Positions 2,328 to 57,641 of a stretch of 64,000 nucleotides of DNA are shown piece by piece. The translations under genes were made by a program, and so were the position numbers. The DNA lies in contig OZ018321.1 of assembly GCA_963969495.1 (NCBI GenBank), positions 131,038,293 to 131,102,292 on the forward strand, read 5' to 3'. How positions within the stretch are numbered: position 1 is the stretch's first letter; every line of letters begins with the position of its first letter. Below the pieces are notes generated by a model. The model was not told the origin of the DNA. It saw only the letters and a program-made list of their open reading frames with translations, and ran no database searches. This DNA comes from Ceratothoa steindachneri. Lineage: Eukaryota; Arthropoda; Malacostraca; Isopoda; Cymothoidae.

Positions 2328-3299
2328 TTAATCTACGCTATTTGGTAACGCATTCCTACTGAGTGCGTCAGCGACCTGGTTATCGGAACCTTTTATATAA
2401 TTTATTTTAAATTGATACTCTTGTAAGAGTAGACTCCAGCGCATAATTCGGCCGTTGGAGTGTCGTACATTCCGAATATCGGCTAACGGGCGGTGGTCGG
2501 TTCCTATCTGAAATTTTTTTCCTATCAAGTACATTTTGAATTTGTCTATAACCCAGATAATTGATAGAGCTTCCTTCTCTATAGTAGCATATCTCTTTTC
2601 GCGTGGTAATAATTGGCGACTAGCATATGCAACTGGATGACTCGTTCCGTCATCCTCATATTGAAGGAGTACACCTCCAATGCCCTCGTTGCTCGCGTCG
2701 GTCTTAATCCTAAAGGATTTTTCCGGGTTGGGCAACTTTAAAATGGGGGAAGAAATGAGCTTATTCTTGAGCTGATTAAAATGGGAAACAGCGACATCAT
2801 TCCAACGTAGACGATCGGGGGAATTCTTTTTTAAAAGGGAGCTGAGGGGCGCCGAAATTGCAGCGAAATTCGGAACAAATCGCCGATAGTAAGAAGCTGA
2901 TCCTAGGAACGATCTTAATTGCTTCTTTGTAATCGGGAGGAACATGTCGGTCATTGTTTTAATCTTGTCCTCTTGGGGACCTTACTGGCTTTGTCCTATT
3001 TTGAAACCCAAGTATTTTATGGTTTCATGGGCAAAATGGCATTTGCTGGGGCCAATGGTGAGGCCATTTTCGCGCAGTCGCTCGAAGAGAGCTAATAGGA
3101 TAGTTAAATGGTGACTCCATTCAAATAGTTCTTGTAGCTGACTCTTTTGATGTGGTGTCAGCTGCGCGTCAATATCCAGGTCAGAGGGTTCAAAAGACTC
3201 GCCTGGTAGGAAAGAAAGAGGGTAATCGCCATCAGGTTGGATGCACACTGTCTGTATTAGATTAAGGGACTCCGCGGGGTAATCTTCTTGAAGTGCCAA
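2328..3299 (-). pseudogene. Truncated RT (thumb/connection) and RNase H of gypsy copy A
   Basis: The reading begins with the pre-RT linker (LTPHQKSQLQELF) and jumps straight to a thumb-side segment (WSHHLTILLALFERLRENG, then KYLGFKIG). The fingers, palm and YxDD catalytic box have been deleted. A TAA near 2979-2981 stands where copy B has a leucine codon. Downstream come the connection (KKQLRSFLGSASYYRRFVPN) and a recognisable RNase H with its acidic residues: KTDASNEGIGG, EKEALSIIW, GTDHRPLADI and KGSDNQVADALSR. A frameshift separates this part from the protease upstream. About 400 bp without an integrase follow before the LTR. The protein cannot reverse-transcribe, although the RNase H core looks whole. 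Confidence 0.88.
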
Positions 3300-3313
3300 T
3301 GTTTCCTCCAGTG

Positions 3314-3925
3314 CTACGAACGTATCTCCATGGGCGCGTTGGGGGTACTTTTTTCTTTGGGTCCACGGACAGTCTCCGTGTCGTTGTCTTGGGCCTTATT
3401 GCCTAAGGGTGTTAGTAATTCACACTCCTTTTGTGCCGTCCTAAAGTCCTGGTTAAGGGTCTCCGAGAAATCGGACGGTATCGGGGTTCTGATGCGGACG
3501 GGCTCCTGGGCTTCTTTCTTAGCTTGACCTCGAGTAAGGGTGGCCTGGGACACAGGGTCGGAGCTTACTTGAGAGCTCTGTCCTATAAGTATAGAACAGA
3601 ATTTTATGGGTGCTGAAATGACTTCAGCCCAGCCATCATAATATTGACAATGCAGATAACATCTAACGACGGGAAATCTGTTCGCCCGCCTAAGGTAGTC
3701 ATGTACCACCGCAAATTTTTCGTGGTTAGGGACCACTGGGGGGAGGAGCTCGTCGGATAAGATGAAACACGTGCATCCTGTGTCCCTGACGAGAGTCGAT
3801 ACTCGGCAGCCGTTCACGCTGCCCTCCTTAAATTTCAAAGTTCCCGGTGAAGTTTTGTCAAAAGTAAAATTTACCTGTTGGCCTGACGGAGGGAAGGGGG
3901 GAGTTACTGCTTGGGTCTGCACCAC
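3314..3925 (-). pseudogene. Aspartic protease region of gypsy copy A
   Basis: The segment VSTLVRDTGCTCFILSDELL carries the DTG active-site triad of a retroviral-type aspartic protease, about 50 residues into this 203-residue frame. It is preceded by the block VNFTFDKTSPGTLKFKEGS, which copy B carries twice. The frame runs on through a proline- and charge-rich linker toward RT and is then broken by a frameshift near 3300-3314. This enzyme normally cuts Gag-Pol within the retrotransposon particle. Because gag upstream and RT downstream are both broken, the whole reading is scored as a pseudogene even though this stretch is open. Confidence 0.8.
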
Positions 3926-5087
3926 CGAGGAAGCCGGGGTGGCATTAATCTGGTGAACTTGGTGGGCTGGTCCGCTCTTAAGCCTAGAATTTTTGGGGCA
4001 ATTTCAGCTCATGTGGTTTTCTACACCACAGGTGAAGCATATGATTGGTCGCTTCGGGAAGAGAGATGGAGGAGAAATCTTAACGGGAGGTTTCGTGTCC
4101 CGTTGTTGGTTTTGGGGAAAGAAGTTTTGGGGTTTTACGGGGCCCGGAAACTTCGTCAGCTTTCGTGGGAAGGGGCGCGAATCCTTCCTTCTTTCGTTGA
4201 TTGGGGGGTTGGTGAGAAGTTCGACTCTCCTTGCGGTATAAACTATGGCTTGCGGCATAGACATTCACTTCTTCGGTACTTTCTTTAAAGGTCTGGCACC
4301 GACGATCCTTGACGAACGCGCGGATCTCCGTCGGGAGAGACGCCAAAAATTGATCCCGCAACAGGAAGTCTGTTAAGGACTCGTAGTTAGGATCAACCTT
4401 TGAGGATTCTAACCAAAATTTAAAATTACTCTGAAAAATGTATCCAAATTGACGGAACGTCTTTCCGGGTTTAATACAACCTGCTCGAAATTCTTGGCGG
4501 TAGAAATCGGGAGTCATATTATTAGCGGCCAATAACTCAGCTTTTAAGGTGCTGTAGTCAATTGTACATTCAGATGGTAAAGATATTAAAATTTCGCGCA
4601 ATTTACAATTTAACAAGGGAAGTAATCTGACTACACCTTCAGCCTCCAGATCTATGTTATTGATTTCGAGGATCTTTTCGAAGTGGGCTAAAAATGCTCC
4701 GAAATCCTCTCCGTCCATGAAATTGGGCAGCTTAAGTGGGAGATGGAGGGGGGGGCTTCTGAACGTGAACTGGCTCACTGTATTTCTGCTTCAACACGAG
4801 CTATTTCAATCTGATGGTGAAGCTCAGCTTGTCTTTTCCGTTCCTCTCTTTCTTTTTCTTTTTCTTCTCGTTGGATTTCTCTTTCTTCTCGTTGAATTTC
4901 TCTTTCTCTTTCTTCTCGTTGGATTTCTCTTTCTCTTTCTTCTCGTTGGATTTCTCTTTCTCTTTCTTTTTCTTTTTATTTTTATTCTCGCTCTTTTCTT
5001 TGCGTTTTCTTGAACGTACTCAATTAGTTCTTTTCCGGAAAGTCCCAAGGATTCTCTTTGCGCTTTAAAGATTTCGAACTGAGTCAT
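3926..5087 (-). pseudogene. Gag (capsid and zinc knuckle) of gypsy copy A, frameshifted
   Basis: The likely start is MTQFEIFKAQRESLGLSG at 5087, conserved in copy B. A short-repeat stretch at 4840-4990 that encodes REIQREERE-type coiled coil in copy B is read here in the wrong frame, giving arginine/lysine-rich nonsense. The capsid-like part (about 4080-4778) includes LPNFMDGEDFGAFLAHFEKI and LRDQFLASLPTEIRAFVKD, typical of gypsy Gag. A zinc knuckle, C-x2-C-x4-H-x4-C, lies near 3990-4050 (ICFTCGVENHMS, then a stop before NCP). At least two frameshifts and one stop disable it. Confidence 0.82.
4840..4990 (-). repeat. In-gene tandem repeat in gag (coiled-coil codons)
   Basis: Repeated units around TTTCTCTTTCTTCTCGTTGG (plus strand) of roughly 27 bp lie inside the gag start region. 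In the intact frame they encode REIQREERE units. Copy A has about four or five units and copy B two or three. The loss of frame in copy A occurs here. Confidence 0.7.
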
Positions 5088-14320: not shown

Positions 14321-15256
14321 TACGAGGGGCGGTCAATAAGTTTTGCGAATCGGTAGGGCAAAACAGAGGAAAGAGGATGGCTGTTTGTGGGGGTGTTAGG
14401 ACAAGTTACGACAAGTCAGGACCTGCAGCCGCACGATCCTGCCTCGTCTATTTAAGAAGCAGTAGCTGATCGCGGATCGTCAGTCATAAAATTTTCAACA
14501 ATGGAGAAGGTTGAGCACCGCGCAGTGATAAAATTTTTGACCAAGGAAGGCAAGAATGCAAAAGAGATCCATGAACGCATGGTTGCAGTGTTCACCGACA
14601 CCGCCCCTTCCTATGCAACCATTGCTCGCTGGAATAGGGAGTTCTGCCATGGTCGTGAGTCCCTCGAAGATGACCCCCGTCCAGTCCGCCCGTCAAACGT
14701 GACCAACGAGGACAATGTGTCCCGTTTGGAGGGGATGATCCTGGAAAATAGACGGGTGAGGGTCGAAAAAATCGAGCGAAAACTTGGAATATCACGTGGA
14801 AGTGTTATCAACATCATCCACGACAATTTGGACATGATCAAGGTCTCTGCCTGTTGGGTCCCTAGAAACCTTACGCCCCATGATCGACTTCAACGTCGTC
14901 AAAGTCCACAAGGCCAGAGTTCCACAAGCTGCCCTGCTCGAGTGCGGATTCGAGGAACTCAACCATCCTTCCTACACCCCAGATTTTGCCACTAGCGACT
15001 ACTTTTTATTTCGCCATTTCAAGGCTGCACTGCGTGGACGCCGGTTTGGGGACGATGAAGATGTCCAGCTCGCAGTCCATGAGTGGATTAAACAACAGTC
15101 GGGAGATTTCTGGTTGTCGGGAATTCGAAGTTTCAGGGACAAGTGGCGCAAGTGCATTGAAGTCGAGAGTAGTTATATTGAAAAATAATAAAACACTTTT
15201 CCTCATATCTCGTTTCCTTATATCCGAATTGCAAAACTTATTGACCGCCCCTCGTA
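14321..15256 (+). mobile_element. Mariner-type transposon, internal deletion derivative with intact ends
   Basis: Terminal inverted repeats CGAGGGGCGGTCAATAAG (14323 on) and its complement (ending 15254) are identical for 24 bp and similar for about 31 bp. They are flanked by TA at 14321-14322 and 15255-15256, the Tc1/mariner target duplication. The 936-bp span is shorter than the ~1.3 kb of a full mariner because the middle of the transposase gene is missing. The preserved ends could in principle be moved in trans. Confidence 0.92.
14501..15188 (+). pseudogene. Mariner transposase with catalytic core deleted
   Basis: The N-terminal DNA-binding half is open from MEKVEHRAVIKFLTKEGKN at 14501, with two helix-turn-helix-like segments ending at WVPRNLTPHDR near 14880. 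The sequence then jumps, with a change of frame, to the C-terminal part (VHKARVPQAALLECGFEELN, HPSYTPDFATSDYFLF, then a terminal CIEVESSYIEK at 15187). In intact mariners the first two catalytic aspartates lie between these parts and are absent here. The third, in the TSDY position, remains. The product cannot catalyse transposition. Confidence 0.88.
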
Positions 15257-36325: not shown

Positions 36326-36456
36326 TGTAGCGAGAAAATGAGTTGATGCTTGATTGTGGCAGGGATCACCAGTTCAAGGTTGAAACTGGTTCCCCCCACT
36401 ACAATCAAGCATCCTTTACGCTCGCTAGAAACATCAACCCCTTCTCTCGCTATAAA
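36326..36456 (+). repeat. Hairpin repeat with TGTAGC end, left of the palindrome
   Basis: TGTAGCGAG begins at 36326. GATGCTTGATTGTGGCAGGG (36345 on) pairs with CACTACAATCAAGCATC (to 36413), giving a stem of about 30 bp around CAAGGTTGAAAC. A TATAAA lies at 36451. Related sequences ending ...ATCAAGCATC plus a GCTACA-type end recur at 42966-43003 and 44211-44289 in the same orientation. It may be an LTR edge or a foldback element. Confidence 0.6.
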
Positions 36457-36926
36457 TGGTGACATGCGGAATGTATCACATCATCTTACGAAGCCATCTA
36501 ATTTCTGAAGTCATCCTCGAAATCTCTCAACGGAACGCAAGTACAACCATGGATTCCATCCAACCGTTCATCAAGGAGCCTACATTCATCTCACCGAATC
36601 ACCAACTCGACTCAACTGGACGCTCAACGTCAGCGCCGTGCAACTCTCCCACTCTCACTCATAACACTCTTCAGTAAGCGACACAATTCAACAAAATTTG
36701 AATTTACAGTCGCAGATACTCGTATGCTCGCAAAACCCCTCTCTAGCCGACTTGCTAGATCGTTAAGTTATCAGCGCGCTTCAGTTTGCATTAATTCATT
36801 ATAACATTATTCATTCATTCGCTCCATCACTTCATTCAATCGAACTCACAGAGTTGCTACCTATGACAACACGCCATCAAAACAACTTATTAGCATTCAC
36901 ATAGCATTCTTAGTTTAGTCCTCCCC
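36457..36926. other. Noncoding stretch between hairpin repeat and palindrome
   Basis: Moderate GC with an open frame (36456-36677) that shows no known domain. It could be part of a retroelement leader belonging with the TATAAA at 36451. Confidence 0.35.
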
Positions 36927-37237
36927 CCCCGCAGGGTGAGGAGGACCTTCCTTTAATTATTGTAAGAAAAATACAAAAATGAAATTTAGAAAAATTTCTT
37001 TAACAAAATAACACAAAAATATTAGACAAAAGGAAACCTCAGAAAAGGTTTAGTAACAAAGTCTGGATATTACCGTAAGAGTTAATGACCAGGACGTCAG
37101 TGAAAGAGAGAAAAGAGATATCAGAGAGCCGAAGAAAGAGTGGAAAGAACACTGGAGGAGCCAGGGGTGGAAGGTGGGAGCAGGTCACACCGGTAGCAGA
37201 GCTGATAAACGTCCGTCCCGGCTCGGGGAGTGTGGGA

Positions 37238-37246
37238 CCTTATATA
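37238..37246 (-). promoter_or_regulatory. TATA box in the left arm (mirror of 42528-42536)
   Basis: TATATAAGG on the minus strand, about 30 bp before GACGGACGTTTATC. It would drive transcription outward, to the left of the palindrome. Confidence 0.55.
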
Positions 37247-37275
37247 GTCCAGAGAAGGAGAAGGCCCACACACGC

Positions 37276-39315
37276 CTAGAAAGTTCTTGCAAAGTGCCGA
37301 GACGGGACGTCAGCCGGATTGTGCCTGCTGCGAACGTACGAAAAGTTTCGTGAAGAAATCCTGAAGGCCGAGGAGAAGTTCAGGAGAGATGTGGTGGAGA
37401 GGCAGAGAAGTACTGACTCAGGAAGTTTGCCCCTCTTTGCGTTCCAGATTGCGCCGATGTTATCCCCGTAGGTGAGGGCGCGAGGGGCGAAGAGGGTGGA
37501 GAGGATGAGACCCAAGGATTCGAGTTCGAAGATTCCAAGGTCCCATTGGCGGCAGTCGAGGGCCATAGAGGCGCCCTGCGACCACCAACCGATTCCCCAT
37601 GGAGAGGCGTCGACAAAGAGTCCCGGAGGGGCCCCCTTAGGGGGGCGAAAACGGGTCCACCGGCCGTGGATAAGGCGGCTGAGGTGAAGGAAAGGTGCCG
37701 GGTTCGGGTGGGTGTCCTGTAAGTAGCACAATTGCACCCAGCAGAAGGGGAGGCGAAGTGCAGGAAGGATAAAGTTGAGGAGGCCCGCAAGGCGAGACCA
37801 TGCCTTGCGGGAGACTGGGCGTGTAGACATAATGCGGAGGGCGGAGCGGGTCTTGTCCCGCATAGAAGAAGTAAGACGAATGCGTTTGAGCTTTAGGTCA
37901 ATATGAAAACCCAAGTAGGAAATTTGTTTTACAGGCGTGGTGAGCGACTTTCTCCAATTTACGTTAATGGAGCTTCGTTCGATGGTTTTCATAAAGGCTC
38001 GGAGGGCGCGCTTTTGTCCGATGCAAAGCACATCGTCCAGGTATGTGGAAACCTTAATGCCGTGATTCGAAGCTAGTTGGTTCATGGTAGTTGCCGTGAG
38101 TTTTTGCATCAGAAAGGGGGCTCCATTGAAGCCCATAGGGAGGCGGGTAAATCGAAACGATCGACTGTCGCATCGGATTCCGAACCATGGGCGAGCCTTT
38201 GGATGAAGGCGCACATGATAAAATCCATCCTTGAGGTCAAGTTTCATGGCCCAAAGATGCTCAGTGGCTGAGTCCATGATCTTCCTTACGCTAGGGAGAC
38301 TGAACTTCGGGGGGCGGTATGCCTCCGCAGCGGGGGACATATCGTAGATGAGACGAGCCGAGCCATTAGGTTTGGCCACCCCGAAGATACGGTGGGCACA
38401 GCGGATGCTGGCTTCTTCAAGCACTCCTCGTTCCATCAAGGTGGAGATCCAAGGGAGAGTACGATCGTCTGACGGAGCCCAGTTGCGGTATGATTTGTTC
38501 AAGAAAATCTTCACGCCGCATTGGGCATTGGCCTTTTGGAGGTGGGATATGGGGGTTATGGAGTCATAGGATCCAGGGGTCTCAACATCCAAGGGGGTGT
38601 TGAAATCCACGCGGGGGGTGTCAGGCTCGAGCGGATCGAGGCCGGGGCTTTCCCACTGGTTGCCCTGGTCATCATTGTTGCCCTGGTTGTCCTGGTTGTT
38701 GCCGTTTGCCTCTTGCTGCTGATCATTTCCGTTGCCACCGTTGCGACCTCTCATGATGTCCGGAGGGCCGCTGTTGGGGTCGTTAAGGATGTCACCCATC
38801 TCCGAGGGGTGGGTATCCGAGGAAGCGATGGACGCAGGAGGAGGGGTAGCAGTAGGGCCTTGAAGCACCGTAGGGACTGCGAGGCCAGGAAGGGGGATGC
38901 ACACAGTGTGACACGGAGGAGGGGCGCGTGGGGGATCAGTGAGAACAAGAGCGCCAAGTTCCTGGGCGGCGGCCTCGAAAAAGGCGGTTACCTCGGGCAC
39001 AGGCAGAGGTGGGCACACACTAATGGTGGGGTCGAGTAACTCGATCACATTTGGCACAGGGGCGGCATCAAAATCCGCAAACACTGGCTGTGGGAACTCG
39101 TCCCGATGTCCTAAGGGGGCATCATACACTTCTATAACACTTTCAGCGGGGCTTGGCACAAGGGGGGGCCTCAACACATCGTACACGATGTGAGGGATTG
39201 GCACAGGGGGCACTGAACGCAAGGGGGTACCGAAGAGGTTGCCGTCGCTGCAGGGGATCCATTCCGGCGTGGATGAGGCGCTGGAAATGGTGAAGCCCGA
39301 AGCCGAAGAGTCCAA
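37276..39315 (-). CDS. RT-RNase H ORF, 5'-truncated inverted copy
   Basis: This frame repeats the C-terminal 679 residues of the ORF at 40162-42498. It differs at three seen residues: Arg for Cys in HPKARPW, Arg for Trp in HGRWTR and Gly for Asp in WGIGWW. All RT and RNase H motifs are present, including YLDD. The palindrome breakpoint at 39404 removes the N-terminal 70 or so codons, and a TAA lies just beyond in the joined sequence, so the copy has no native start: the indicated start is a TTG. It is open and otherwise undamaged, but has no suitable promoter upstream in its own orientation. Confidence 0.85.
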   Translation of the reverse strand: MDSSASGFTISSASSTPEWIPCSDGNLFGTPLRSVPPVPIPHIVYDVLRPPLVPSPAESVIEVYDAPLGHRDEFPQPVFADFDAAPVPNVIELLDPTISVCPPLPVPEVTAFFEAAAQELGALVLTDPPRAPPPCHTVCIPLPGLAVPTVLQGPTATPPPASIASSDTHPSEMGDILNDPNSGPPDIMRGRNGGNGNDQQQEANGNNQDNQGNNDDQGNQWESPGLDPLEPDTPRVDFNTPLDVETPGSYDSITPISHLQKANAQCGVKIFLNKSYRNWAPSDDRTLPWISTLMERGVLEEASIRCAHRIFGVAKPNGSARLIYDMSPAAEAYRPPKFSLPSVRKIMDSATEHLWAMKLDLKDGFYHVRLHPKARPWFGIRCDSRSFRFTRLPMGFNGAPFLMQKLTATTMNQLASNHGIKVSTYLDDVLCIGQKRALRAFMKTIERSSINVNWRKSLTTPVKQISYLGFHIDLKLKRIRLTSSMRDKTRSALRIMSTRPVSRKAWSRLAGLLNFILPALRLPFCWVQLCYLQDTHPNPAPFLHLSRLIHGRWTRFRPPKGAPPGLFVDASPWGIGWWSQGASMALDCRQWDLGIFELESLGLILSTLFAPRALTYGDNIGAIWNAKRGKLPESVLLCLSTTSLLNFSSAFRISSRNFSYVRSRHNPADVPSRHFARTF

Positions 39316-39402
39316 GGTGGGGCTGGGACTTGGGAAGTAAGGTGGCGAGCCAGGGCTTAGGGAGCGAAACTCCTCTGAGGTGTCCGAGCGGGAGCGGACG
39401 TC

Positions 39403-39442
39403 GACGGACGTTTATCAGCTCTGCTACTGGTGTGACCTGCTC
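39403..39442 (+). repeat. Short terminal redundancy, 5' copy
   Basis: GACGGACGTTTATCAGCTCT and the following 20 bp match 42558-42597 with one mismatch (T for C at 39427). It begins exactly where the left arm ends. Confidence 0.85.
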
Positions 39443-39488
39443 TCTCCGCTCATCTTCTTCCTTGGTTTGATTCATCTCTCCCGGCGCC

Positions 39489-40310
39489 TTGCGGCTTCCG
39501 GGGATGAGCCTTTCCAGGTCTACTAGTAGCAGGCTTCGGCTTGTCCCGCCGACTTCGGAACTTCCAGACCTTCAAGAATCAGCAACTGCGTCCGTTCCTG
39601 ATACACAAGACTCCGGGACCTGCACGGGTGAGGGTGGATTCGGCGCTGGCTCTCAGGCGAGCAGCACGCGTTATTTCCTCCCCGGCGCATCCCGAAGCCT
39701 CGCCCCTTCGCCGGCGAGTGAGAGGCCGGAGGTCCGCCACGAAAGGGGACCGTCGCCCCCTCCGGTTCAGGCTCTTCGTGATTTTCACCTGGAACCCCTC
39801 TCCTATATGGTAGATCCTGAAACCCCTAGGTCGCCTAGTCGTCCGCCGCCAGCGTACGACTCCACCACTGAAGAGACCACACGGGCCCAGCCGGTCGACA
39901 TTGAGTGCTACGCCCACATCCGGTGGGAAGTAATCCTCGCGCACCTTCGACGCCACCTTTCTTCGTCCTGCTTCAGACCGCGGGATAGGGTTGAGATTGA
40001 GTTATTGCTGGCTCTTTTCCCCTTTCGGCTGAGTGTGCCCACTGCGACGTTCCACACGATTCATCAGCGCGTCCGCCTATACTACACGGTGTCAATCCAC
40101 GGTTGGTCCGCAGCCACCATTGACACGAGGCTCCAGGCCTCCAACGAGTCCGGCATAGAATATGATTCCCGGATCCTCAACCGGTCGACAGCGGCCAGAC
40201 CGCCCCCAGCGTACGGCTCTTGGTACAGGGCCCCAGCGCCCCGACGTGTTGGTCGGCGACGCCCTGCAGCTCGGTCTCGAGCGGGCCCGCAGGTTCCTGC
40301 AAGACGTTAG
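39489..40310 (+). CDS. ORF1 of the palindromic retroelement, gag-like
   Basis: 273 residues in the single-copy spacer, with the first ATG 86 bp after the inferred transcript start. It is rich in Pro, Ser and Arg. Two PPAY motifs, in RPPPAYDST (about residue 120) and RPPPAYGSW (about residue 240), fit the PPxY late-domain pattern that binds Nedd4-type ubiquitin ligases. The central part (HIRWEVILAHLRRHL to RVRLYYTVSIHGW) looks helical and could be a capsid core. The C-terminus is arginine-rich, as in nucleic-acid-binding tails. It overlaps ORF2 by 149 bp in the -2/+1 frame. There is no zinc knuckle and no protease motif. The gag role is inferred from position and composition. Confidence 0.65.
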   Translation: MRLPGMSLSRSTSSRLRLVPPTSELPDLQESATASVPDTQDSGTCTGEGGFGAGSQASSTRYFLPGASRSLAPSPASERPEVRHERGPSPPPVQALRDFHLEPLSYMVDPETPRSPSRPPPAYDSTTEETTRAQPVDIECYAHIRWEVILAHLRRHLSSSCFRPRDRVEIELLLALFPFRLSVPTATFHTIHQRVRLYYTVSIHGWSAATIDTRLQASNESGIEYDSRILNRSTAARPPPAYGSWYRAPAPRRVGRRRPAARSRAGPQVPARR

Positions 40311-42498
40311 GTCCAGCGTGGATTGGCGCACTGAACTTCGCATCGCCCGCCACCGCCGCCGCATGGGTTTCGACGTCCGCTCCCGCTCGGACACCTCAGA
40401 GGAGTTTCGCTCCCTAAGCCCTGGCTCGCCACCTTACTTCCCAAGTCCCAGCCCCACCTTGGACTCTTCGGCTTCGGGCTTCACCATTTCCAGCGCCTCA
40501 TCCACGCCGGAATGGATCCCCTGCAGCGACGGCAACCTCTTCGGTACCCCCTTGCGTTCAGTGCCCCCTGTGCCAATCCCTCACATCGTGTACGATGTGT
40601 TGAGGCCCCCCCTTGTGCCAAGCCCCGCTGAAAGTGTTATAGAAGTGTATGATGCCCCCTTAGGACATCGGGACGAGTTCCCACAGCCAGTGTTTGCGGA
40701 TTTTGATGCCGCCCCTGTGCCAAATGTGATCGAGTTACTCGACCCCACCATTAGTGTGTGCCCACCTCTGCCTGTGCCCGAGGTAACCGCCTTTTTCGAG
40801 GCCGCCGCCCAGGAACTTGGCGCTCTTGTTCTCACTGATCCCCCACGCGCCCCTCCTCCGTGTCACACTGTGTGCATCCCCCTTCCTGGCCTCGCAGTCC
40901 CTACGGTGCTTCAAGGCCCTACTGCTACCCCTCCTCCTGCGTCCATCGCTTCCTCGGATACCCACCCCTCGGAGATGGGTGACATCCTTAACGACCCCAA
41001 CAGCGGCCCTCCGGACATCATGAGAGGTCGCAACGGTGGCAACGGAAATGATCAGCAGCAAGAGGCAAACGGCAACAACCAGGACAACCAGGGCAACAAT
41101 GATGACCAGGGCAACCAGTGGGAAAGCCCCGGCCTCGATCCGCTCGAGCCTGACACCCCCCGCGTGGATTTCAACACCCCCTTGGATGTTGAGACCCCTG
41201 GATCCTATGACTCCATAACCCCCATATCCCACCTCCAAAAGGCCAATGCCCAATGCGGCGTGAAGATTTTCTTGAACAAATCATACCGCAACTGGGCTCC
41301 GTCAGACGATCGTACTCTCCCTTGGATCTCCACCTTGATGGAACGAGGAGTGCTTGAAGAAGCCAGCATCCGCTGTGCCCACCGTATCTTCGGGGTGGCC
41401 AAACCTAATGGCTCGGCTCGTCTCATCTACGATATGTCCCCCGCTGCGGAGGCATACCGCCCCCCGAAGTTCAGTCTCCCTAGCGTAAGGAAGATCATGG
41501 ACTCAGCCACTGAGCATCTTTGGGCCATGAAACTTGACCTCAAGGATGGATTTTATCATGTGCGCCTTCATCCAAAGGCTTGCCCATGGTTCGGAATCCG
41601 ATGCGACAGTCGATCGTTTCGATTTACCCGCCTCCCTATGGGCTTCAATGGAGCCCCCTTTCTGATGCAAAAACTCACGGCAACTACCATGAACCAACTA
41701 GCTTCGAATCACGGCATTAAGGTTTCCACATACCTGGACGATGTGCTTTGCATCGGACAAAAGCGCGCCCTCCGAGCCTTTATGAAAACCATCGAACGAA
41801 GCTCCATTAACGTAAATTGGAGAAAGTCGCTCACCACGCCTGTAAAACAAATTTCCTACTTGGGTTTTCATATTGACCTAAAGCTCAAACGCATTCGTCT
41901 TACTTCTTCTATGCGGGACAAGACCCGCTCCGCCCTCCGCATTATGTCTACACGCCCAGTCTCCCGCAAGGCATGGTCTCGCCTTGCGGGCCTCCTCAAC
42001 TTTATCCTTCCTGCACTTCGCCTCCCCTTCTGCTGGGTGCAATTGTGCTACTTACAGGACACCCACCCGAACCCGGCACCTTTCCTTCACCTCAGCCGCC
42101 TTATCCACGGCTGGTGGACCCGTTTTCGCCCCCCTAAGGGGGCCCCTCCGGGACTCTTTGTCGACGCCTCTCCATGGGGAATCGATTGGTGGTCGCAGGG
42201 CGCCTCTATGGCCCTCGACTGCCGCCAATGGGACCTTGGAATCTTCGAACTCGAATCCTTGGGTCTCATCCTCTCCACCCTCTTCGCCCCTCGCGCCCTC
42301 ACCTACGGGGATAACATCGGCGCAATCTGGAACGCAAAGAGGGGCAAACTTCCTGAGTCAGTACTTCTCTGCCTCTCCACCACATCTCTCCTGAACTTCT
42401 CCTCGGCCTTCAGGATTTCTTCACGAAACTTTTCGTACGTTCGCAGCAGGCACAATCCGGCTGACGTCCCGTCTCGGCACTTTGCAAGAACTTTCTAG
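40162..42498 (+). CDS. ORF2 of the palindromic retroelement: reverse transcriptase-RNase H
   Basis: 778 residues starting at ATG 40162; a TAG at 40156-40158 closes the frame upstream, so it starts here or by +1 shift from ORF1. Residues 1 to about 350 are a proline- and acid-rich spacer with an Asn/Gln/Gly run. RT motifs follow: GVAKPNGSARLIYDMS, MKLDLKDGFYHVRL (catalytic Asp459), FRFTRLPMGFNGAPF, YLDD (524-527) and ISYLGFHID. RNase H has LFVDAS (Asp668), FELES (Glu696 or Glu698), YGDN (Asp717) and NPAD (Asp768), ten residues before the stop. No protease, integrase or tyrosine recombinase is visible before or after. The RT and the NPAD-type RNase H end recall DIRS-like and hepadnavirus-related retroelements rather than Ty3/gypsy. 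No stop or frameshift breaks it. Confidence 0.88.
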   Translation: MIPGSSTGRQRPDRPQRTALGTGPQRPDVLVGDALQLGLERARRFLQDVRSSVDWRTELRIARHRRRMGFDVRSRSDTSEEFRSLSPGSPPYFPSPSPTLDSSASGFTISSASSTPEWIPCSDGNLFGTPLRSVPPVPIPHIVYDVLRPPLVPSPAESVIEVYDAPLGHRDEFPQPVFADFDAAPVPNVIELLDPTISVCPPLPVPEVTAFFEAAAQELGALVLTDPPRAPPPCHTVCIPLPGLAVPTVLQGPTATPPPASIASSDTHPSEMGDILNDPNSGPPDIMRGRNGGNGNDQQQEANGNNQDNQGNNDDQGNQWESPGLDPLEPDTPRVDFNTPLDVETPGSYDSITPISHLQKANAQCGVKIFLNKSYRNWAPSDDRTLPWISTLMERGVLEEASIRCAHRIFGVAKPNGSARLIYDMSPAAEAYRPPKFSLPSVRKIMDSATEHLWAMKLDLKDGFYHVRLHPKACPWFGIRCDSRSFRFTRLPMGFNGAPFLMQKLTATTMNQLASNHGIKVSTYLDDVLCIGQKRALRAFMKTIERSSINVNWRKSLTTPVKQISYLGFHIDLKLKRIRLTSSMRDKTRSALRIMSTRPVSRKAWSRLAGLLNFILPALRLPFCWVQLCYLQDTHPNPAPFLHLSRLIHGWWTRFRPPKGAPPGLFVDASPWGIDWWSQGASMALDCRQWDLGIFELESLGLILSTLFAPRALTYGDNIGAIWNAKRGKLPESVLLCLSTTSLLNFSSAFRISSRNFSYVRSRHNPADVPSRHFARTF

Positions 42499-42527
42499 GC
42501 GTGTGTGGGCCTTCTCCTTCTCTGGAC

Positions 42528-42536
42528 TATATAAGG
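42528..42536 (+). promoter_or_regulatory. TATA box in the 3' region of the retroelement
   Basis: TATATAAGG lies 30 bp before GACGGACGTTTATC (42558), the sequence that also begins the spacer at 39403. In a complete element with terminal repeats this promoter would sit upstream of ORF1. Here the 5' copy of it is missing. Confidence 0.7.
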
Positions 42537-42557
42537 TCCCACACTCCCCGAGCCGGG

Positions 42558-42597
42558 ACGGACGTTTATCAGCTCTGCTACCGGTGTGACCTGCTCC
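42558..42597 (+). repeat. Short terminal redundancy, 3' copy
   Basis: Matches 39403-39442 with one mismatch, and the two then diverge completely. A standard LTR R region would be expected to match to the poly(A) site at about 42847. Confidence 0.85.
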
Positions 42598-42847
42598 CAC
42601 CTTCCACCCCTGGCTCCTCCAGTGTTCTTTCCACTCTTTCTTCGGCTCTCTGATATCTCTTTTCTCTCTTTCACTGACGTCCTGGTCATTAACTCTTACG
42701 GTAATATCCAGACTTTGTTACTAAACCTTTTCTGAGGTTTCCTTTTGTCTAATATTTTTGTGTTATTTTGTTAAAGAAATTTTTCTAAATTTCATTTTTG
42801 TATTTTTCTTACAATAATTAAAGGAAGGTCCTCCTCACCCTGCGGGG

Positions 42848-44210
42848 TAAGGAAGAGACTAAAAAAGTTAACTTTAAAGCAACAAAGGCCTACAACGAGT
42901 ACGGTTCTCATCGCATTCACGAGGGTTGGAAGTCAGCTCGACCACTTCGTTCATCAAATTATTTAACCCCCGCCATAATCAAGCATCCTCTTCGCCCGCT
43001 ACAAGAATTAGTTAACTAATTATTTCTTTCAAATTCACTGAATTTACGTTTGCTCTCTTATTGTATTATTAAGACAAATTTGCAGTCAATCGACTCATTT
43101 TTCTTCCTCTACGTTCACACTAAATTGACACACACGCATTCAAGTGATCAATGTACAGCCAAGATAAAATAACCTTTTGACAACCGTATTTCAAAATGTA
43201 TCGTTTGAGATTTCAAAATGTATTATTTGTATATTTGAATCATGTAAACACCCACTTAATTATTATGCACTTTGTACAAATTTGACTTAATAATTCCGTA
43301 TAACTAGTTCAAATCATTATTTTACTTTAATGATATTTGATGTATCGAATTTTAACAATTAGTTAGCGAGAACTAATGTCCTTTTATACTCGTGTATTAT
43401 TTTAACCAACGAATTGGTGTACCTCTTACCTCATTATTTTATTTATTCTATTTGCCATGCCAATGAATCTTCATTATTATATTTTTGCTCAATTGCTTAA
43501 TTAAGATTGAATTATATCATTCTTTTAATTCGAATATACTTAATTGTTGCTATTTTCATTTTATTTTATAGTTTTTTTATATTTTATATGTAAGCACTCA
43601 AATGTAACTGCATTTGCTAATTCAGAAGGCTGGGTGATTTGGGGCGATCCATTTACACAAAAATTACACACATTCTTGTACAGACTCACGTGTTCCGACC
43701 ATAGCGACCATTGATTTTGCCTTGGTCAGATTATCTTCCTTTTAATTACAAAAGAATTGGTTCCTAGAAAACTGTCATTAAACTTTTTCATCCTACTTTG
43801 TTTATTGACGGCAATCTGTTAGACTGAATCCTAGAAACATAAACATTCCTTTTCTCATTATCTATCTCTAAAATTCCTTGGATAGACAATCGTTGCTCTA
43901 TCTTTTTCAAACACACATCAGCGAATATTCACTTCAGACAAAGCTCCTCCAATGAAACCACATTGGTCACGCTTACCTTCTCTACACATATAAAACAATC
44001 GGATTATTAAACACAGAAACATTATTCACATTATCTACACAGTCGATCAAATCACTTCGTCTTCGTTGAGCTCCCTCCACCTCCAGCCATTCATCTTATT
44101 AAAACTCAAGTTCAAAATGAAGTTATTTTTTAACAACCCATTTGTAAATCCAAAGTCAAACTTATTTAGTGCACACTCTCAAACAAACTCGAATCGCGAA
44201 CTTGAATTCA
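42848..44210. other. Noncoding flank right of the palindrome
   Basis: AT-rich with no open frame of note. A fragment of the hairpin repeat family lies at 42966-43003. Confidence 0.5.
42966..43003 (+). repeat. Hairpin-repeat family fragment (right half)
   Basis: CCCCCGCCATAATCAAGCAT, then CCTCTTCGCCCGCTACA, matches the right part of the repeats at 36326 and 44211. Confidence 0.6.
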
Positions 44211-44289
44211 TGTAGCAGAGAAGGAATATTTGTTCCAACTTGGAACTGGTAACCCCCGCCATAATCAAGCATCATCTCTGCTTGCTACA
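44211..44289 (+). repeat. Hairpin-repeat family member, TGTAGC...GCTACA
   Basis: A 79-bp unit beginning TGTAGCAGAG and ending CTCTGCTTGCTACA. Its ends are inverted and it shares CCCGCCATAATCAAGCATC with the other two copies. It is followed by GAATCAACCTCTTCTCT, as is the copy at 36326. Confidence 0.65.
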
Positions 44290-44307
44290 AGAATCAACCT
44301 CTTCTCT

Positions 44308-48064: not shown

Positions 48065-48137
48065 CGCCCCTACAAGGACTCGAACCTCGAACCTCTGGTT
48101 ATTTAGACCAGTGCTCTACAGACTAAGATAACGGGAC
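48065..48137 (-). tRNA. tRNA-like Pol III unit, anticodon AAA; probable pseudogene or SINE head
   Basis: The minus strand folds as a tRNA of 73 nt. The acceptor is GTCCCGT / TAGGGGC with five of seven pairs. A D-arm is imperfect around TCTT...GAGC. The anticodon stem CTGGT / ACCAG is perfect around CTAAATA, which puts AAA at the anticodon. The T-arm is CGAGG / CCTTG with TTCGAGT. The B box GGTTCGAGTCC fits the consensus, and a T6 run four bases after the discriminator would stop Pol III. AAA (Phe) is an unusual anticodon and the acceptor mismatches argue against a working tRNA. Confidence 0.45.
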
Positions 48138-55832: not shown

Positions 55833-56181
55833 TATTTAAATTTGGTATTAGGTGAGTAAGGTTTAACGCTATATCCTTGCAAACACTGGTCTCAGTCAAA
55901 TAAAGCATAGTGTTATTCGTTATAATAATAGAGTATAGTAGTTCCCTTTTGTTTTAACGATTGCTATCCCCTTTTTTAAACTTAAGAAGCTGGAGTAGCT
56001 CAAAGAACTGTTATAATAATTTGTTTGCGTTTTTTTTGTGATTTTAGTCAGTGGTTATTTAGATCGAGAAACCAAGTACGAATAGGTCAGTGCCCATATT
56101 TAGGTAGGCTAATTCTATAGAGGCATAATTCTTGTTGTGAGGAATTTTAGTTGGTTGACTATTGAGCCCCCAAGTGCAAAG

Positions 56182-56841
56182 ATGACTCAGTTCGAAATCT
56201 TTAAAGCGCAAGGAGAATCCTTGGGACTTTCCGGAGAAGAACTAATTGAGTCCGTTCAAGAGGAGCAAAGAACAGAAAGAGAAATCCAACGAGAAGAAAG
56301 AGAAAGAGAAATCCAACGAGAAGAAAGAGAAAGAGAGGAACGGATAAGACAAGCTGAGCTTCACCATCAGATTGAATTAGCTCGTGTTCAAGCAGAAACT
56401 TCTCCCCCTCCGTCAGGCCACCAGGTAAATTTTATTTTTGATAAAAGTTCATCGGGAACTTTGAAATTTGAGGAGGGCAGCGTGAACGGCTGCCGAGTAT
56501 TGACTCTTGTCAGGGACACAGGATGTACGTGTTTCATCGTGTCCGACGAACTCCTACCCCCAGTGGACCATAACCACGAAAAATTTGCGGTGGTACATGA
56601 CTACCTTACGAAGTTTCCGGGTCCCGTAAAACCCCAAAACTTCATTCCTCAAAACAAACAACGGGATTCCAAACCTCCCGTTAAGATTCCTCCTCTATCT
56701 CTCTTCCCGAAGCGACCAATCATATGCTTCACCTGTGGTTTAGAAAACCCCATAAGCTGGAATTGCCCCATAAATTCTAGGCTTAAAAGCGGACCAGCCC
56801 ACCAAGTTCACCAGATTAATGCCAGTCGGCTCCCCCGGTAG
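56182..56841 (+). pseudogene. Chimeric Gag-protease reading frame of copy B
   Basis: Begins MTQFEIFKAQGESLGLSG, followed by two to three REIQREERE coiled-coil units. Where copy A has about 200 residues of capsid, this frame instead has a protease segment with LVRDTGCTCF (about 56510-56540). It then returns to the end of gag, with the knuckle-like ICFTCGLENPISWNC (H replaced by P) and closing residues HQVHQINASRL. A TAG ends it at 56839-56841. The open frame of 220 codons is a rearrangement product lacking a capsid. Confidence 0.8.
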
Positions 56842-57641
56842 TGCAGACCAAAGCAGCAACTTCTTCCCCTCCGTCAGGCCACCAGGTAAATTTTTTTTTC
56901 GATAAAAGTTCATCGGGAACTTTGAAATTTGAGGAAGGCAGCGTGAATGGCTGCCGAGTATCGACTCTCGTCAGGGACACAGGATTTACGTGTTTCATCG
57001 TGTCCGACGGACTCCTCCTCCCAGTGGACCCTAACGACGAAAAATTTGCGGTGGTACATGACTACCTTGGGCGGGCGAACCAATTCCCCGTCGTTAGATG
57101 TTACCTGCAGGGTCAATATTATGATGGCTGGGCTGAAGTCATTTCAGCACCCGTACAATTTTGTTCCGTACATATAGGACAGAGCCCCCAAGTAAGTTCC
57201 GACCCTGTGTTTCAGGCCACCTTTCCTCGAGGCCGAGCTAAGAAAGAAGCCCAGGAGCCCGTCCCCATCAGAACCCCGATACCGTCCGATTTCTCGGAGA
57301 CCCTTAACCAGGACTTTAGGACGGCACAAAAAGAGTGTGAATCACTAACACCATTAGGTGATAAGGTCCAAGACAAGGACACGGAGACTGTCCGTGGACC
57401 CAAAGAAAAAAAGTACCCCCAACGCGCCCATGGAGATACCTTCGTAGCACTGGACGAAACATCGGCGCTTGAAGAGGATTACCCCGCGGAGTCCCTTAAT
57501 GTAATCCAGACAGTGTGCATCCAACCTGATGCCAATTACCCTCCTCCTTCCCTACCAGGCGAGCTTTTCGAACCCTCTGAACTGGATATCGACGCGCAGC
57601 TGACGTCACATCAAAAGAGTCAGCTACAAGAACTATTTTAA
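56841..57641 (+). pseudogene. Second protease and pre-RT linker of copy B
   Basis: Repeats the VNFFFDKSSSGTLKFEEGS block and the active site LVRDTGFTCF, then runs through the linker found in copy A (QFPVVRCYL, PIPSDFSETLNQDFRTAQ, DIDAQLTSHQKSQLQELF) to a TAA. The stop replaces the glutamate of copy A's ELFEWSHH at the RT deletion junction. It is open for 266 codons. Confidence 0.8.

Follow-up and report, generated by a model that had tools for sequence, protein, structure and literature searches.

The 64,000-nucleotide stretch of Ceratothoa steindachneri contig OZ018321.1 analyzed here (positions 131,038,293 to 131,102,292, assembly GCA_963969495.1), referred to as the window, carries a large palindrome (W) formed by a reverse transcriptase (RT)-encoding retroelement. 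A repeat search identified an inverted repeat with arms of 2,478 nt each at 36927-39404 (-) and 40370-42847 (+), which enclose a spacer of 965 nt and differ at 3 of 2478 positions. This confirms the palindrome at the place given by the initial annotation of this DNA, and the junction letters quoted there, GACGGACGTTT at 39403 and TCGACGTCCGC at 40370, are present. An inverted repeat of 2.5 kb is beyond chance. As read from the assembled sequence, W is a true inverted retroelement dimer, in which a full-length copy (39403-42847, +) and a 5'-truncated copy (36927-39404, -; delimited by repeat search, arm alignment and locus mapping) stand head to head with both 3' ends pointing outward. With element positions numbered along the plus copy (E1 = window 39405, E3443 = 42847), the truncated copy starts at E966 and is joined at 39403-39404 to the full copy, at the transcript start of the latter, with an overlap of about 2 nt, as judged from the sequence and from junction comparison. 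According to copy comparison, the full copy begins at the transcript start, reaches the 3' region and ends with GCGGGG, 17 nt short of the native end; the left copy has the native 3' tail, GGGGAGGACTAAACTAA (36910-36926, -), which is found in other copies but missing from the right one. The length of exactly 2,478 bp that had been emphasized for the arms is correct, but it is fixed by the shorter copy and is not a biological length.

The earlier proposal that the plus copy represents a full transcript was borne out. A 45-nt direct, R-like repeat, detected by repeat search, is located at the transcript start (39403-39447, +) and recurs at 42557-42601 (+), 29 nt behind a TATA box (TATATAAG, 42528-42535, +) that was read directly from the sequence. 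Full-length starts, with 5' ends at E1-E7, were obtained for W and for L009, L011, L013, L015 and L022 (L numbers denote other genomic loci of the same family), and the TATA stretch is also present at the 5' end of L020 and L030, from E3098 on, just past the ORF2 stop. The 5' repeat spans only about 40-96 nt (96 in L020 and L030). Separately, in L020 and L021 a promoter-like stretch of 90-96 nt (within E3098-3193), located at a 5' end or a tandem joint, matches the window with 100% identity, unlike the remainder of the copy, which is only 88-96% identical.

Two open reading frames (ORFs) are contained in the element. ORF1 (39489-40310, +; 273 aa from TTG as listed) carries two PPPAY motifs and has no Pfam family match, while ORF2 (40162-42498, +; 778 aa), delimited from the ORF list, Pfam and alignment, encodes an RT and an RNase H-like region; a 679-aa open portion of ORF2 is listed within the truncated left copy as well (37276-39315, -). 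The RT domain (Pfam RVT_1, 41464-41874, +) includes YLDD. In the RNase H-like region (42163-42465, +; by alignment) D317, E347 and D366 (piece numbering) are invariant even when distant relatives are included, and D417 is invariant within the family only. Substitutions relative to the right arm were distributed by codon position as 99/19/443 in the ORF1-only part (13 copies) and as 513/310/2724 in the ORF2-only part (16 copies), many of the compared copies being 5'-truncated; this skew suggests that both ORFs are genuine genes subject to purifying selection, which is strong in ORF1. Pfam reported only RVT_1 and a weak DNA_pol_viral_C match on ORF2; no integrase, endonuclease, recombinase or methyltransferase was detected by Pfam in ORF1 or ORF2, and an NCBIfam scan gave no match. 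For a terminal protein, as used in protein priming, no Pfam match was obtained in ORF1, and no dedicated search was made. The element terminates in a hairpin, GTCCTCC...GGAGGAC (36918-36946, -), recognized by copy comparison and RNA folding; a 65-nt RNA containing it folds at -26.7 kcal/mol (z -3.8), and 1 of 200 shuffles was equally good.

Many relatives of the element are present in its own genome (3.93 Gb in 529 contigs), in which 40 of 446 candidate places were scored. W and 26 loci were mapped, namely the 20 best-ranked (L009-L028) and six chosen mostly for inversion (L029-L034); ten further places lie outside this set. The mapped copies have a common 3' end with the strong hairpin and vary in their 5' truncation. 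Most 3' ends reach the hairpin, GTCCTCC-TCACCCTGCGGGGGG-GGAGGAC, followed by TAAACTAA or less of it, some stop at GCGGGG like the right copy of W, and L014, L024 and L034 stop earlier. Inverted joints were observed in 5/20 of the rank-chosen loci (L012, where it covers only about 24 nt, L013, L015, L019 and L028) and in 5/6 of the chosen ones. On C14, three element copies at 170364500, 170389660 and 170414822 are spaced by about 25.2 kb, which suggests a tandem segmental duplication. No relatives were found in phage records, and a pattern search of IMG/VR gave 2 matches, 0 of which were confirmed as relatives.

In some members of the family, the 3' hairpin continues into copied upstream sequence of the element itself, which results in tail-to-tail palindromes. 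There are 115 exact occurrences of the 3' motif in the genome (0 for the control). The pattern of a copied-back hairpin was matched 14 times genome-wide, against 1 match for the reversed control. Two of these matches have unrelated loops and 11 lie on the element hairpin (L012, L028, L031 and L035-L042), 8 of them clear. The remaining match, L017, was dropped as a fold-back since it is a head-to-tail joint of 3' regions, which reduced the hairpin matches from 12 to 11. The copy extends furthest in L028, with 1905 nt ungapped past the native stem and 2 mismatches (2266 nt aligned, about 2.27 kb), followed by L035 (at least 757 nt up to the edge of the analyzed stretch, 4 mismatches) and L031 (143 nt); shorter copies past the stem are found in L041 (20 nt), L039 (17), L040 (13, 1 mismatch), L012 (11), L036 and L042 (8 each), L038 (5) and L037 (4). 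L012, L037 and L040 also pair at an inner mini-hairpin at GCGGGG, with copied words of 24, 17 and 16 nt. The count excludes L010, with a copied word of 9 nt, and L033, which falls outside the pattern by one substitution and has a paired stretch of 204 nt that includes 1 mismatch. In L036 the 8 copied nucleotides are followed by the reverse complement of E1596-1166, as if the polymerase had changed template. Four tail-to-tail pairs of the 3' motif were additionally found on C3, C6, C13 and C14, outside the mapped set. Repeated fold-back copying in the family is therefore well supported by the structure of these copies, and copies with other fold-back points, as envisaged in the initial annotation, exist both head to head and tail to tail. 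In the window itself, the nucleotides after the GCGGGG of the right copy (42848-42856, TAAGGAAGA) match 7/9 of the copied-back hairpin TGAGGAGGA by eye; the right end of W may therefore have been self-primed as well.

To the relatedness of the arms, nine dimers with an overlap above 700 nt (W, L013, L015a/d, L019, L028, L029, L035, L043 and L044a/b) contributed, and 47 segments of the larger family were compared; the short-overlap dimers L012, L030, L031, L033, L034 and L036-L042 were left out. In 9/9 the arms were each other's closest relatives by percent identity among the compared segments (99.1-99.9%, best other segment 91.4-99.4%). The arms of W share 5 variants that none of the other 28-31 segments spanning these positions carries, and their 3 differences are all private to the right arm; the L030 arms share 2 private variants with 0 differences over their short overlap. 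These data support the derivation of both W arms from one template or source. The nine arm pairs differ by 0.06-0.66%, so that the insertions would be young, unless the arms were converted. The joined ends in W, L013 and L030 consist of one natural terminus and one internal end, and L044 can be described as a fold with a loop of about 20 nt.

For W, a recent inverted dimer made by complementary DNA (cDNA) fold-back from an RT-RNase H retroelement that apparently lacks an integrating enzyme of its own is the reading we favour, with somewhat better than even chances and short of proof. In this reading, minus-strand synthesis would have proceeded as far as 39403, where the transcript begins; the 3' end of the cDNA would then have snapped back to an internal position (E966) and been extended by copying the remainder. 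After opening, the resulting molecule would have been joined into a break in the chromosome by end joining. From the origin story of the initial annotation, the reverse-transcribed element, the full plus copy and a single source (the 5 shared private variants) were retained, but the reasoning from equal arm ends and microhomology was not. Equal ends do not exclude two insertions: on either side the outer end is formed by the 3' end of the element, so any two head-to-head copies with this common end match on the outside, and the inner end of the repeat merely marks where the shorter copy stops. The GACGTC microhomology proposed for the junction was rejected, since the overlap amounts to about 2 nt. 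As for the snap-back step, fold-back recurs in the family, but at W itself the joining of sister cDNAs stays a live rival.

Several observations weigh against fold-back as the origin of W or as a general route. The 2-nt overlap at the W junction is unremarkable, with 299/3425 possible points equalling or exceeding it, and the right outer end of W (GCGGGG) differs from the left (native tail), although fold-back with flush ends should leave the two ends equal until they are trimmed. The inner ends of head-to-head dimers (966/1, 1503/1668, 268/2727 and 2501/2522) allow a short loop in 1/4 only, and chance places 12/120 pairs of single-copy 5' ends within 21 nt. L029, L034, L043 and L044 have no natural terminus at either joined end. 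L044 includes a third, head-to-tail copy that carries a gap of 17-19 nt; if only mismatches are counted, 2 separate it from one of the arms, compared with 6 between the arms themselves. Together with the copies in L015 that are 99.1% alike, this means that different molecules are joined at some loci. Among the 11 hairpin sites, L036, L038 and L042 (5-8 copied nt) are weak on their own because L017, which is no fold-back, reaches 5 nt. Finally, of the 115 native 3' ends 100 were listed, and copied-back sequence follows only 8 of these (L033 included), which does not establish hairpin extension as the normal priming route.

The most serious alternative, which we consider plausible but clearly less probable than fold-back, is that two sister cDNAs of one active source were inserted together with their inner ends joined at a chromosomal break, each primed from the RNA 3' end at one side of the break or both ligated there. 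It predicts the element's 3' end at both outer ends, as seen, and accommodates outer ends that are unlike each other in W and L029, the small junction overlap, and L044 and L015, where several sister molecules could be joined at one site. However, arms at least 99.1% alike in 9/9 tested dimers speak against it, and the hairpin-centred tail-to-tail palindromes cannot arise by priming at both break ends, so that this alternative needs a second mechanism. Two independent insertions at one place, later homogenized by gene conversion, are very improbable: palindrome arms can undergo gene conversion and the nine measured arm pairs differ by 0.06-0.66% only, but at several loci the second insertion must have hit the inner end of the first exactly, with no host DNA between, and with arms mutually closest among the 47 compared segments in 9/9 tested dimers this was rejected as the main explanation. 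An inverted duplication of chromosomal DNA by fold-back of a broken chromosome after one insertion has precedent in inversions reported in yeast (excerpts of PMC7467729), and is likewise most doubtful here, as the arms reach no further than the 3' ends of the element itself and the 25 longest of 437 inverted pairs include no other long inverted repeat nearby but AT runs. An assembly or chimeric-read artefact hardly comes into consideration: the palindrome is known from the assembly alone, but its two sides have different flanks, its arms differ at 3 sites and dimers with other breakpoints lie on other contigs; a missed-adapter read is unlikely because the outer flanks differ and other loci hold differently broken dimers.

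At the insertion sites, exact words of at least 6 nt near each end gave no target duplication above the null (500 mismatched flank pairs, reaching 9) at any of the 27 loci. Three empty sites, each compared with two paralogues of 77-94% identity, revealed small target deletions of about 5-14 bp (L016), 26-34 bp (L028) and 31-32 bp (L014). At least five loci sit within copies of another retrotransposon, which we take to be non-LTR (lacking long terminal repeats, LTRs) from its ORFs; the three empty-site comparisons come from these loci. L018 lies in an apparent gypsy integrase frame (by eye), and its flanks do not meet. As Pfam points to none of the three enzyme types (integrase, endonuclease, recombinase), the simplest reading would be that end joining captures the element at breaks.

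Around the palindrome, members of a 45-nt repeat family (76-100% alike) flank both sides (36390-36434, 42964-43008 and 44250-44294). Pieces of Gypsy-type elements with proteins similar by eye are found at 2328-4778 (-), with an RNase H and a SCAN-like domain, and at 56137-57641 (+). The window further contains an ORF with a nuclear receptor-type C4 zinc finger (zf-C4, 23106-24398, +), presumably knirps-like and thereby suggestive of an arthropod, a Mos1-type transposase helix-turn-helix (14501-14995, +) and a tRNA family match (48065-48137, -) with no counterpart in the ARAGORN output.

The route by which retroelements that lack an integrating enzyme reach the chromosome is an open question, in particular for HEART, invertebrate retroelements said to be relatives of hepadnaviruses (excerpts of PMC12691608, PMC11551314 and PMC12440569), whose mobilization mechanism is called not yet resolved in the part available of PMC12440569. 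In the family described here, young copies preserve traces of priming and capture at their joints, with graded hairpin fold-backs, an apparent template change and empty sites with small deletions. A more far-reaching possibility, which we regard as tentative and rather unlikely, is that the element RNA primes its own minus strand by the 3' hairpin and that the product stays extrachromosomal until host end joining inserts it, an integrase-free, hepadnavirus-like (perhaps HEART) lifestyle with palindromes and concatemers as by-products. Fold-back of the transcript end may help to explain the spread of elements without a DNA-cutting enzyme of their own.

The nearest proteins in a protein search were the RT-RNase H proteins P0001 and P0003-P0007, with 22-27% identity in a joint alignment, which we take to be DIRS-like, in part from the Dam domain in P0007. 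An alignment-based structure model of moderate confidence (predicted local distance difference test, pLDDT, 65.8; 33 for a single-sequence model) ranked caulimovirus, foamy virus, hepadnavirus, Moloney murine leukaemia virus (MMLV) and Ty3 enzymes in a fold search. The element RT, accompanied by an RNase H, appears to be of the LTR/pararetrovirus type. Among 10 scanned members, the hepadnavirus RNase H profile DNA_pol_viral_C matched weakly in 10/10, below the cut-off, and no other RNase H Pfam model matched up to E 1; these matches give a weak hint of a possible kinship with hepadnavirus relatives such as HEART, known here by description only.

In contrast to LTR retrotransposons, the element has no integrase domain by Pfam. 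Their two full LTRs and duplications of 4-6 bp may be absent as well: the 5' repeat spans only about 40-96 nt, flank words of at least 6 nt did not exceed the null in 27 loci, and the three empty sites show deletions. It resembles DIRS-like elements in an RT-RNase H of the virus-like branch, judged by matches and Foldseek alone, but has no tyrosine recombinase or methyltransferase by Pfam. With target-primed non-LTR elements it shares a common 3' end and variable 5' truncation (some copies, such as L014, L024 and L034, being 3'-cut), whereas it lacks an endonuclease (Pfam) and a duplication of at least 6 nt and shows deletions at the three empty sites. Endonuclease-independent insertions of long interspersed nuclear elements (LINEs) and integrations of hepatitis B virus (HBV) type are generally marked by a lack of target duplication, by small target deletions and by truncated ends. 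The element is like them in these respects, as far as duplications of at least 6 nt and the three empty sites go, although here this mode looks usual at the examined loci and not an exception.

Penelope-like elements differ from the element in that, judged by best matches alone, its RT is closest to MMLV, foamy virus, Ty3, caulimovirus and hepadnavirus enzymes and apparently not telomerase-related, and canonical members differ in the GIY-YIG endonuclease, which Pfam did not detect here. Nevertheless, according to the excerpts of PMC3846280 the Penelope-like elements of Adineta vaga are arranged in tandem or inverted, form palindromes where inverted copies meet, and carry a partial terminal repeat that includes a TATA box as well as an optional 'tail'; the present element likewise has inverted and tandem copies, palindromes, a partial repeat with a TATA box and a tail. 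In these excerpts the head-to-head arrangement is most frequent, target duplications occur at some copies and an endonuclease is encoded; self-priming is inferred, and on a sense template it would yield tail-to-tail copies. The hairpin-centred copies of the present element are tail to tail, Pfam detected no endonuclease in it, and its RT appears to be of another type. The idea of self-primed palindromes as such is already known, and Penelope self-priming (PMC3846280, as excerpted) is the nearest mechanistic precedent found in the open literature; the family described here points to sense-strand 3' self-priming in an apparently different RT lineage.

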